From Alphaproteobacteria bacterium (GTDB lineage: Bacteria; Pseudomonadota; Alphaproteobacteria; Micavibrionales; UBA2020), in the NCBI GenBank assembly GCA_025934695.1, contig JAICWS010000002.1:434001-498000 (forward strand): a stretch of DNA of 64,000 nt, in the 5' to 3' direction. The notes beneath the pieces were generated by a model. The model was not told the origin of the DNA and made no database searches. It was given only the letters and a program-made list of their open reading frames with translations. A program made the translations under genes and the position numbers. Numbering within the stretch: position 1 is the stretch's first letter; each line of letters starts with the position of its first letter. Positions 2,837-62,803 of this stretch are shown here, piece after piece.

Positions 2837-2864
2837 TTGACATAATAGCAAAAATGCTTATAGT
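2837..2864 (+). promoter_or_regulatory. Sigma70-type promoter for the J-domain gene
   Basis: TTGACA (2837-2842) and TATAGT (2859-2864) are separated by 16 bp. This lies about 50 bp upstream of the J-domain start, between divergent genes. Confidence 0.6.
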
Positions 2865-8155: not shown

Positions 8156-8185
8156 TTTATAGCAGAACCTAACTTATTATGTCAA
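8156..8185 (-). promoter_or_regulatory. Sigma70-type promoter for the 7711-8109 gene
   Basis: On the minus strand TTGACA (8180-8185) and TATAAA (8156-8161) are spaced by 18 bp. The element lies between the porin stop and the start of the small gene. Confidence 0.65.
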
Positions 8186-60285: not shown

Positions 60286-61254
60286 ATTTCCAATACCGGT
60301 GACATCGCCAGGGCGCAGCGCCTGTCGTTCCAGGATTCCCTGCAACCCTTCCTGATTTTCGCGGCCTGGCTGTTCGCCTGGGAATTGCCGGTCGACGGCC
60401 TCTGGCTCAGTTTCAGCGTACTGGGCCCGCTGCACTACCTGACGCAGATGTCCTGGCTGCACGACCGTTCCTATTTCTTCCGCGACCCCTTGCCGAAAAA
60501 GATATTCGTGCCCGCCGCGGCGGTCGCGGCGGGATTTTATATTTACGCGGCGATCGAGCCCTCGGGTCTTTTCGAATCCGCCTGCGCGATCCTGGCGGTC
60601 TTCCTGCTGCCGGCCTTTATGCGCACGCCGAAGACGCTGCGCCTGGGCGTCGCGGCCGCGGCGTTCCTGGCCGTGCTGCTGTGCGTTTCGCCGCTCGCGG
60701 CCCTGTTCGCGGGCGTGTTCCTGCCCACGGTCGTGCATGTCGGGCTGTTCACGCTGCTGTTCCTGCTCACCGGCGCGCTGCGCGGCAACAGCATTGCCAG
60801 CTATATCTCGGCCCTCGCCTGGATCGTGGCGGCGGTCAGCCTGTTCCTGCTGCCGCCCAGCGGGCATCTGCTTGCGGGCGACTGGGCCAAGCCGCCGCGT
60901 ATCTTCTGGACCGGTCTGGCGGAAGGCTTCGGTTGGGTTTTCTCGATAAAGCCCTCGACGGTATTCCCGTTCCTGACCTTCGCCTATACCTATCACTTTC
61001 TGAACTGGTTCACGAAGACCGAGCTTTTGAAATGGCACCTGGTGCCGCCCCGGCGCCAGGCGGCCATCGGCGTCATCCTGGCCGTGACCCTGGCGGCCTG
61101 CCTTTACGATTACCAGTTCGGCTATATGACCCTGCTGCTGCCCTTAAGTATCATGCACGTGCTGCTGGAATTCCCGCTCGATATGCAGGTCATTCTGGGC
61201 CTGCCGGCGCTGGTCACGGCCAAAATCGCAAAGGCGCACGGGCCGGCTCGCTGA
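60286..61254 (+). CDS. Polytopic membrane protein, start codon uncertain
   Basis: The reading frame opens after a TAA at 60256 and encodes about ten hydrophobic segments. Coding character begins before the first ordinary start codon (TTG at 60385): QDSLQPFLIFAAWLFAWELP would be a first membrane helix. The best ribosome-binding site, GGGGGAGG at 60272-60279, is 6 bp before an ATT codon at 60286, which would give a 322-residue product with a rare AUU start. Family not recognised. The C-terminal 90 codons (60977-61246) are duplicated downstream at 62526. A 14-codon ATG frame at 60258-60302 overlaps the start region. Confidence 0.7.
   Translation: MSNTGDIARAQRLSFQDSLQPFLIFAAWLFAWELPVDGLWLSFSVLGPLHYLTQMSWLHDRSYFFRDPLPKKIFVPAAAVAAGFYIYAAIEPSGLFESACAILAVFLLPAFMRTPKTLRLGVAAAAFLAVLLCVSPLAALFAGVFLPTVVHVGLFTLLFLLTGALRGNSIASYISALAWIVAAVSLFLLPPSGHLLAGDWAKPPRIFWTGLAEGFGWVFSIKPSTVFPFLTFAYTYHFLNWFTKTELLKWHLVPPRRQAAIGVILAVTLAACLYDYQFGYMTLLLPLSIMHVLLEFPLDMQVILGLPALVTAKIAKAHGPAR
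60977..61246 (+). repeat. 270-bp direct repeat, upstream copy (3' end of membrane-protein gene)
   Basis: Matches 62526-62795 in the same orientation with 8 mismatches by my count and no gaps. This copy is in the intact gene. Confidence 0.95.
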
Positions 61255-61296: not shown

Positions 61297-61872
61297 CTAC
61301 TTTCTGAACCTGAGCGGCCGGAAAACTTTGATTTTTTCCTGCGGCACGGTCGTCGCGCAAGCGTTCGGCACAGTCGGCGCGCGTTCCTTTGTTGCCGGAG
61401 ACATCCAGACCAATCGCAGGCGTCCAACGGTACTCTCGTCAAGCCCTCCGCTTCGCTTTGATCCGTTGCTGAAGTTTAGCCGGCATGACTGCCTTGAGAA
61501 TCCGCGTAAACGACGCTCTGAAAACGACCAATATTCACCCGCTTTCTTAAAGGTCCCTTTCAGGGCGCCCTTTTCCATGTTTTTATAAATTTGTTCTATT
61601 TGGCGTTCGGTGGGAATCTTGCCCCCGACTTTGCTAGCGCGGTGCATAGCCCGTTTGAAAGTATTCTTTGAAATAAGGCCCGCAGCCCAGCGCTCGTCTT
61701 TCGGTGAAATATAAAGTTCCATACCGGTTCTTTCTTCGACACCCATGTAGACCTGTCCGGCATGTAGATGACCCGCCGGCATTACGTCGCCAACCTCGAG
61801 CGCTTTCTGCGCCGGAGAATCATTTGCGGGGGTGCGTGAATCTTTGTTCCGTCCGAACTTCAATAAGCCCAT
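61297..61872 (-). CDS. DUF1566-like protein
   Basis: The 191-residue product has the pattern of the DUF1566/Lcl C-terminal domain: VGGKIPTERQIEQIYKNMEK, then KKAGEYWSFSE, LNFSNGSKRS and GRLRLVWM, with YWS-S-E and the closing L-R-L-V. This fold is C-type-lectin-like in phage and some secreted proteins. There is no signal peptide. The N-terminal half (HLHAGQVYMGVEERTGMELY) begins the same domain. AAGGAGAAGAAC precedes the ATG at 61872. It lies about 70 bp downstream of an intrinsic terminator, so its expression may depend on read-through. Confidence 0.65.
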   Translation of the reverse strand: MGLLKFGRNKDSRTPANDSPAQKALEVGDVMPAGHLHAGQVYMGVEERTGMELYISPKDERWAAGLISKNTFKRAMHRASKVGGKIPTERQIEQIYKNMEKGALKGTFKKAGEYWSFSERRLRGFSRQSCRLNFSNGSKRSGGLDESTVGRLRLVWMSPATKERAPTVPNACATTVPQEKIKVFRPLRFRK

Positions 61873-61941
61873 GTTCTTCTCCTTATCAACTGTTGCGGTT
61901 GATCAGGGCTGGCCATGTTGCGATCGGGAAGATCCAGACAT

Positions 61942-61979
61942 AAAAAAACAACCCTGAACGCTCAAGTTCAGTGGCTGTT
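61942..61979 (-). terminator. Intrinsic terminator in the leader of the DUF1566-like gene
   Basis: On the minus strand a hairpin (CTGAAC pairing with GTTCAG, extended by outer AACA/TGTT pairs) is followed by seven Ts (complement of 61942-61948). Confidence 0.75.
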
Positions 61980-62059
61980 TTGCTTTCGTGCTGTGATTGC
62001 CCAGAGGTAAAACAGTTCCTAAACTAGGAAAACCGCTCTGTCACAAGAGTGCACGTTGC
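61942..62059 (-). ncRNA. Putative small RNA/leader RNA, copy 1 (terminator-bearing)
   Basis: A promoter at 62066-62095 predicts transcription from about 62059, and the RNA would end at the terminator at 61942, about 118 nt. It can form a helix (GTGA-CAGAG with CTCTG-GGCAA-TCAC) around an inner hairpin (TTCCTA with TAGGAA). It is homologous to the leader at 62370-62480, sharing TCACAGCACG and GCAAAAC. It contains no credible open frame. Not a known family that I recognise; it could be an independent sRNA or an attenuator for the DUF1566-like gene. Confidence 0.55.
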
Positions 62060-62065
62060 AGGATA

Positions 62066-62095
62066 TTTATATCCGAGAGGGGGATACTATGTCAA
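62066..62095 (-). promoter_or_regulatory. Sigma70-type promoter of RNA copy 1
   Basis: On the minus strand TTGACA (62090-62095) and TATAAA (62066-62071) with 18-bp spacing. Confidence 0.7.
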
Positions 62096-62138
62096 CTAAT
62101 TCCGGGTGTGATAATGGGAATCCGGGCACCAAATCCGT

Positions 62139-62321
62139 CTACGGCCGGAAGTTTTCGTTCGGGTCGCCGTCGTCGTAGGAATTGGATTTCGTCCGGTCCC
62201 GGTAAGGCGTCGAGGAGTAATCGCGCTCGGGGTGGCGACGGCGTTCTTCGGCGTCCTTTCGGGCCTTTTCGTCGAATTCTTCCCGGATGTCGTCCATATC
62301 GGTCCAGCCGTCGTCGTTCAT
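62139..62321 (-). CDS. Small charged hypothetical protein, 60 residues
   Basis: MNDDGWTDMDDIREEFDEKA is the start; the protein is rich in Asp, Arg and Glu and predicted to be mostly disordered. GGAG precedes the ATG at 62321. It follows RNA copy 2, which has lost its terminator, so it may be transcribed from that promoter. Family not recognised. Confidence 0.5.
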   Translation of the reverse strand: MNDDGWTDMDDIREEFDEKARKDAEERRRHPERDYSSTPYRDRTKSNSYDDGDPNENFRP

Positions 62322-62369
62322 TGAAAGCTCCGTTGTCGGATAAGGGATCTGTCTAAAGGGATGGAATCG

Positions 62370-62480
62370 AATAATCCTGAATAACAAGTCCATGACGGTT
62401 TTGCCGACCGTGCTGTGAAGTCCCAGGCATGAAACGTGAATAGTCTTAAAAAACCACGCTGGCACAAGATGCACGCAACG
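62370..62480 (-). ncRNA. Putative small RNA/leader RNA, copy 2 (terminator decayed)
   Basis: Homologue of copy 1 under its own promoter. The closing helix is preserved with different bases (GTG-CCAG with CTGG-GACTT-CAC) around an inner hairpin (CGTG with CACG). The downstream hairpin that acts as terminator in copy 1 is disrupted here (ATTCAGGATTATT). The transcript probably runs into the 60-residue gene. Confidence 0.5.
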
Positions 62481-62485
62481 ATGAA

Positions 62486-62514
62486 AAGATAGCAAAGCTG
62501 GAGTGTTATGTCAA
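62486..62514 (-). promoter_or_regulatory. Sigma70-type promoter of RNA copy 2
   Basis: On the minus strand TTGACA (62509-62514) and TATCTT (62486-62491) with 17-bp spacing. The -35 is 12 bp from the downstream direct repeat. Confidence 0.65.
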
Positions 62515-62525
62515 TAGTGAGCGTG

Positions 62526-62795
62526 CCTTCGCCTATACCCATCACTTCCTGAACTGGTTCACGAAGACCGAGCTTTTGAAATGGCACCTGGTGCCGCCGC
62601 GGCGCCAGGCGGCCATCGGCGTCATCCTGGCCGTGACCCTGGCGGCCTGCCTTTACGATTACCAGTTCTGCTATATGACCCTGCTGCTGCCCTTAAGTAT
62701 CATGCACGTGCTGCTGGAATTCCCGCTCGATATGCAGGTCATTCTGGGCCTGCTGGCGCTGGTCACGGCCAAAGTCGCCAAGGCGCGCGGGCCGG
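62526..62795 (+). repeat. 270-bp direct repeat, downstream copy
   Basis: Same orientation as 60977-61246, 8 mismatches by my count, no gaps. Most of the differences are clustered at the two ends. Confidence 0.95.
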
Positions 62796-62803
62796 TGCCC
62801 TGA
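62526..62803 (+). pseudogene. Partial duplicate of the 60286-61254 membrane-protein gene
   Basis: Encodes only the last 90 or so residues (FAYTHHFLNWFTKTELLKWH onward) with a changed end (KARGPVP). The frame upstream is open for about 25 codons but has no start codon or Shine-Dalgarno before the homologous part. An internal ATG at 62576 exists. I regard it as a non-functional 5'-truncated copy. Confidence 0.8.

Follow-up and report, generated by a model that had tools for sequence, protein, structure and literature searches.

Among the bacterial riboswitches that act on translation, SAM-II and preQ1-II pair a stem that sequesters the Shine–Dalgarno sequence with H-type or triple-helix pseudoknots, and triple-helix elements are also known from eukaryotic and viral RNAs, where they are called ENEs. 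All riboswitch classes that sense signalling molecules were at one time orphans, or were split off from another class (PMC7266159, a review); an orphan leader that spans a regulon is therefore a lead to an unknown signal. Here we describe such a leader family, starting from two copies – c1 and c2 – in a 64,000-nucleotide stretch of alphaproteobacterial DNA, hereafter the window. We hold with high confidence that c1 and c2 belong to a new structured-RNA family acting as a cis leader. Judged from sequence comparison, this 5' leader probably controls translation of the gene that follows, perhaps through a choice between a hairpin that hides the Shine–Dalgarno sequence and the capture of that hairpin's A-tract by a U-rich loop. 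Structured regulatory leaders are a known kind of element; the family, its scale and the putative design of the switch appear new within the searches made.

The original prediction had placed two homologous structured RNAs, each behind its own promoter, on the minus strand, and both are present as described:

61941–62055, minus strand: leader RNA copy 1 (c1), core matched by covariance model R2 (80.0 bits, E 2.7e-15 in the window; member of the training set)
62066–62095, minus strand: promoter of copy 1, TTGACATAG, spacer 18, TATAAA (from the sequence; the family-wide promoter)
62364–62475, minus strand: leader RNA copy 2 (c2), with weakened 3' hairpin and intact loop and A-tract (77.1 bits, E 1.1e-14 in the window; member of the training set)
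62486–62514, minus strand: promoter of copy 2, TTGACATAAC, spacer 17, TATCTT (from the sequence and a promoter scan)

Both promoters are sigma-70-like, with minus-strand boxes at 62095–62090 (TTGACA) and 62071–62066 (TATAAA) for copy 1, and at 62514–62509 (TTGACA) and 62491–62486 (TATCTT) for copy 2, the latter also recovered by the scan. The two RNAs, expected to align over some 115 nt, do so across about 112–116 nt and have a common layout, CGTGC...TGTG / CACAGCACG, around an inner helix (P2) of differing bases. Each of the motifs named beforehand is there – CGTGC/GCACG and TGTG/CACA in the closing helix, CAGAG/CTCTG in one copy where the other has CCAG/CTGG, GCAAAAC and TTCAGG – and so is the inner hairpin, found in c1 as TTCCTA/TAGGAA. 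The supposed decay of copy 2 holds for its 3' hairpin and not for its A-tract and loop. Two is the right number of copies for the window, where a search with the family model finds c1 and c2 only, and the wrong one for the genome, which has about 58. Independently of any model, BLAST with c1 finds a third copy in the same genome (E 3.8e-6) and loci in two other species of the genus (E 8e-13 and 3e-9). Compared with shuffled sequence, the folding energy of c1 gives z = -3.5, and c2 alone folds no better than its shuffled counterparts (z = 0.09), so that the case rests on the family and not on folding energy. Adjoining copy 2, at 62576–62803 on the plus strand, lies a second, truncated version of the C-terminal portion of a 289-aa membrane-like protein encoded at 60385–61254 (plus strand), which suggests a local duplication.

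The figure of about 58 copies in the 4.1-Mb genome comes from covariance models, sequence models and hand inspection: it is the union of the places found by models R2 and R3 and by eye, six of which were picked up by going through promoter sites by hand, and its weak members were only partly checked by eye. A first covariance model built from five sequences (R1) found more than 20 copies in this genome and had matches throughout the genus, in each of its six genomes. R2, a covariance model of 19 sequences – in which a few added N keep the bulge positions in register and some training sequences had their hairpin inserts excised – found 34 copies in the same genome at E ≤ 0.01, and single copies in one further genus and in one further family of the order; at E ≤ 0.001 it gave no match outside the copies' own genome among 385 sampled genomes of the class. 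R3, a model of divergent subtypes used only to find copies, was built from sequence alone because MAFFT misaligned the helices, and it added further copies, including members in additional genera and families of the order. Beyond the genus, a small number of other genera and families of the order, apparently Micavibrionales, have a single leader or a few; the relatives with leaders include metagenome-assembled genomes labelled 'Micavibrio sp.' and 'Alphaproteobacteria bacterium', and two members from another family (L164, L176) retain the Shine–Dalgarno hairpin and ATG.

With Rfam 15, no covariance model matches the window at the gathering threshold; among ten loci searched, tRNA was the only match above threshold, with no related family even at E ≤ 1. 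A pattern scan of the viral contigs of IMG/VR found no match, and no account of the element turned up in literature searches. The covariance search proposed alongside the original prediction, run against genomes of the class and against Rfam, thus gave homologues within the order, covariation among them and a negative Rfam result. Two matches were rejected: one in genome G021 (L177), which sits in apparent coding sequence, and one in Bacteroidales (L054), judged to be a chance coding match. On a contig labelled Bryobacterales (JAOAPR010000097.1; L051, 4564–4760), a family leader with its promoter precedes a gene related to the one behind L132, through either mis-binning or transfer; R2 found nothing in the genome concerned and missed even this visible element, and its empty result there is therefore uninformative.

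The copies are placed as leaders. The promoter sequence TTGACATAAT, with at least nine of ten bases matching, lies upstream of 53 of 64 copies, and an ORF of at least 60 aa led by a Shine–Dalgarno sequence follows downstream in 53 of the 64, compared with 10 of 64 in which such an ORF is divergent. This orientation, together with the position before ORFs, argues for a leader rather than a free small RNA or a random repeat; of the two roles first proposed, leader of small genes thereby gains and duplicated sRNA loses. A trans-acting sRNA would form a unit without a fixed link to the gene downstream, whereas the orientation is fixed in most copies, and leaders have been kept with homologous genes across species (L008/L010, L011/L015). 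Separately, the extended promoter TTGACATAAT-N-TAT occurs at 73 sites in this genome (G000), as against none for the reversed control. At a substantial part of these sites the leader comes next; at the others a short 5' UTR leads into genes of a similar kind, with ankyrin-like, LRR-like or unknown genes at many of them. The extended promoter may define a larger regulon. Within the window, such sites lie at 2837–2861 (plus strand), preceding a J-domain-like gene, and at 8159–8185 (minus strand). The same type of promoter also stands at L150 (G000:C6:35270–36220, minus strand), where the sequence behind it resembles a short RNA containing a strong GC hairpin with a T run and a CCTCCTT motif; this is a possible trans-acting sRNA of the regulon.

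The structure is best described through c1, whose elements are as follows:

62051–62055, minus strand: 5' strand of P1a, CGTGC, pairing with GCACG at 61987–61991 (two-sided changes at all five pairs in the family)
62042–62045, minus strand: 5' strand of P1b, TGTG, pairing with CACA at 61992–61995 (two-sided changes at all four pairs)
62036–62040, minus strand: 5' strand of P2, CAGAG, pairing with CTCTG at 62002–62006 (94.6% of cells paired; five of seven pairs compensatory)
62029–62033, minus strand: near-invariant loop motif 1, GTTTT (family alignment)
62016–62030, minus strand: optional inner hairpin P3, TTCCTA-GTT-TAGGAA, overlapping the end of motif 1 (from the sequence)
62009–62015, minus strand: near-invariant loop motif 2, CTGTTTT in c1 and GTTTC in most copies (complementary to 61975–61981)
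61975–61981, minus strand: A-tract AAAACAG, part of the 5' arm of the Shine–Dalgarno hairpin or alternative partner of loop motif 2
61945–61981, minus strand: 3' hairpin, AAAACAGCC-CTGAAC...GTTCAG-GGTTGTTTT, predicted to sequester the Shine–Dalgarno sequence (minimum-free-energy structure; compensatory pairs in the family)

Across the 58 distinct copies, P1, P2 and the 3' hairpin show compensatory changes, two-sided in 22 of 27 pairs; 83.3% of cells are paired, compared with 33–49% after sliding of the 3' partners, and covariation scores 0.382, with 0.154 ± 0.008 for shuffled alignments. The alignment behind these values (A7) is fitted to the structure model, and a smaller, MAFFT-based alignment agrees (0.250 against 0.132 ± 0.012 shuffled). 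P2 is the best supported helix. The pairing of P3 is kept with other bases in other copies (ACCC/GGGT, TTCC/GGAA, CCAAAA/TTTTGG), and at least eight copies have an optional hairpin between P1a and P1b, with differing stems such as GCCCGG/CCGGGC or CTCTC/GAGAG. The 3' hairpin has the consensus AAAACARCC / GGYTGTTTT and is degenerate in some copies, among them c2, L034 and L020; a short outer helix just 5' of the A-tract is less well supported (mean stem 3.33 against 2.91 ± 0.11 shuffled). With homologues that carry compensatory changes and no match in Rfam 15, the RNAs are indeed what had been surmised, an unrecognised structured family with covarying helices.

The 3' arm of this hairpin contains the Shine–Dalgarno sequence, and 44 of 58 copies have it as RGG. 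In 32 of 58, an ATG or GTG lies 4–12 nt downstream of the GG (28 of them ATG), compared with 8–17 at control positions, and about half of the copies have neither codon directly after the hairpin. The start codon can be that of the gene itself (e.g. L016, L022, L025, L032, L040, L044, L046, L047); in another architecture it opens a short leader ORF, which in five cases overlaps the gene by exactly 4 nt (in several as ATGA; L010, L028, L083, L097 – where the start is TTG – and L099). A conserved, structured 5' UTR domain overlapping the expression platform, one of the class-independent marks of a riboswitch, is thus found here. Around the window copies, the corresponding features are:

61952–61955, minus strand: Shine–Dalgarno-like AGGG within the c1 hairpin (from the sequence)
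61903–61941, minus strand: possible 12-codon leader ORF of c1, with its ATG 10 nt past the AGGG and its end 30 nt before the gene
61297–61872, minus strand: gene after copy 1, 191 aa, no Pfam match, basic C-terminus ...KVFRPLRFRK
62139–62321, minus strand: small gene after copy 2, 60 aa, no Pfam match

The A-tract appears to serve more than the hairpin. GUUUU, GUUUC and the A-tract are all intact in 50 of 58 copies, and A105 and A106 are kept in 55, though pairing with their hairpin partners is seen in no more than 29 and 36 of the 58; conserved beyond these partners, the two adenines probably have a second role or a second partner. Such a partner is offered by GUUUC, with which G56–C109 and U57–59/A106–108 pair in nearly all copies. 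In shuffles that ignore relatedness, and with a few motifs mis-extracted (L143, L148, L152), the flanking pair 54–113 is paired 63 times against 50.3 (0 of 2000 shuffles as high) and 55–110 59 times against 51.8 (P 0.0015). One change missed by the automatic extraction is found in another tandem pair of this genome's leaders (L152 and L153; G000:C6:200110–201750), where GCTTC/AAAGC in one copy and GTTTC/AAAAC in the other form a compensatory exchange of U-A for C-G. On A7 alone the alternative helix, whose pairing is nearly invariant, is not significant (32 of 500 shuffles), and we therefore infer the loop/A-tract step with moderate confidence. Competition between a U-loop/A-tract pseudoknot and the Shine–Dalgarno hairpin is plausible but tentative, and a U.A-U triple with GUUUU is speculation.

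In the mechanism we propose, the transcript from the conserved promoter would carry the P1–P2 domain, optionally with P3, at its 5' end, followed by the hairpin with the conserved AAAACARCC in its 5' arm and the Shine–Dalgarno sequence in its 3' arm and, in about half of the copies, just 3' of it, by a start codon, either the gene's own or one opening a short leader ORF with possible coupling to the gene through the ATGA overlap. Once formed, the hairpin would hide the ribosome-binding site; capture of the A-tract by the U-rich internal loop of the upstream domain (GUUUU...GUUUC), as a helix or perhaps as a pseudoknot with a U.A-U triple, would release it. A candidate signal – metabolite, second messenger, protein or trans RNA – might bias the choice, placing about 58 mostly lineage-specific genes, some of them with ankyrin or LRR repeats, under the switch. 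The boldest version, in which an order-specific translational riboswitch of some 58 copies sets a triple-helix-like pseudoknot against the Shine–Dalgarno hairpin and lets a global signal switch an effector-like regulon, we regard as unlikely to hold in full.

The 3' hairpin could instead be an intrinsic terminator, with the upstream fold as the antiterminator that controls read-through. Its stem has the A-tract/U-tract form of a terminator, the c1 hairpin is followed by TTGTTTTTTT, and long T runs also end L087, L103 and L130. In many copies, however, TTGT gives way to mixed bases (L047, L092, L015, L091, L096, L101) while the helix is still kept by compensatory changes, and a Shine–Dalgarno sequence and start codon are enriched at fixed spacing; a GC stem running directly into a U-tract, expected in most members if they were terminators, is true of c1 and a few others. 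The seven-T terminator first noted in c1 is exceptional, and termination is not supported as the mechanism of the family. Attenuation is accordingly improbable as a general account, and a terminator role is possible in individual copies such as c1. Since many tails are insufficiently U-rich for termination and the seven T of c1 are atypical, translational control is the best reading, and a translational switch through sequestration of the Shine–Dalgarno sequence is reasonably likely.

Translational control might also do without a small-molecule ligand, if heat, or a protein bound at the U-rich loop, opened the hairpin. The AU-rich end of the hairpin fits an RNA thermometer, and the near-invariance of the U-rich loop and A-tract is what protein-bound single strands could show; yet the large covarying upstream domain exceeds what a thermometer needs, and no regulator protein has been identified, so that we consider this pair of explanations rather unlikely. 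The possession of a promoter, a compact fold and many copies would also suit paralogous trans-acting sRNAs, each with its own promoter and terminator and near genes by chance, and c1 could end at its own T run, but the bias in orientation and distance towards downstream ORFs, the start codons built into the 3' end, the poor terminators of most copies and the retention of the leader with homologous genes in different species make this very improbable. Least probable is a mobile or passive repeat of MITE or REP type that spread with the promoter and has no regulatory function: many copies in one genus and few in its relatives are what it would leave behind, but not the strong orientation bias and compensatory substitutions, and neither a match on viral contigs nor a common sequence outside promoter and leader was noticed.

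As for the genes behind the leader, most of the downstream products tested have no Pfam match. Those recognised contain ankyrin repeats (L028, L035), a sub-threshold LRR (L046) or an alpha/beta hydrolase (L023); by eye, the products of L040, L044, L032 and L099 are LRR-like, and those of L022, L036 and L104 have a repeated HR.DGPA motif in common. The term 'effector-like' is a description of this repeat content only. A basic C-terminal tail resembling (V)xxPLRFRK recurs in the otherwise unrelated products of the c1 gene, L034, L036, L046 and L050; as a common signal it was rejected, being present in few products only. Type IV secretion was likewise rejected as an exit route for these proteins: a search of the genome for the VirB4 family PF03135 gave no hit, and type III and type IV systems are reported to be missing from Micavibrio ARL-13 (PMC3189940), so we make no claim of secreted effectors. 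Promoter and leader mark out, in relatives of predatory alphaproteobacteria, a large group of proteins that are uncharacterised and in part of ankyrin or LRR type; these proteins look coordinately controlled, and their control becomes directly testable.

So many copies per genome are reached by few classes of cis-regulatory RNA. In this respect the family is like the many-copy orphan riboswitches – GEMM (c-di-GMP-I) before its ligand was known – which are structured 5' leaders with many copies per genome, functionally mixed genes and an overlap with the expression platform; it differs from orphans of that type in having no sequence or structure match in Rfam, in being found in one bacterial order so far and in preceding mostly lineage-specific genes. 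The alphaproteobacterial 'ar' sRNAs of Rfam are similarly short structured RNAs with a promoter and a 3' hairpin, whereas the leader matches none of them above threshold and is cis-acting. With ENEs it has in common a helix-flanked, U-rich internal loop and an A-tract, a resemblance only, as it is a bacterial 5' leader with a tract of just 3–4 A. With SAM-II and preQ1-II it plausibly shares a pseudoknot of U-rich loop and A-rich strand beside the ribosome-binding site, although its aptamer fold differs and its candidate pseudoknot and hairpin would compete for the A-tract.
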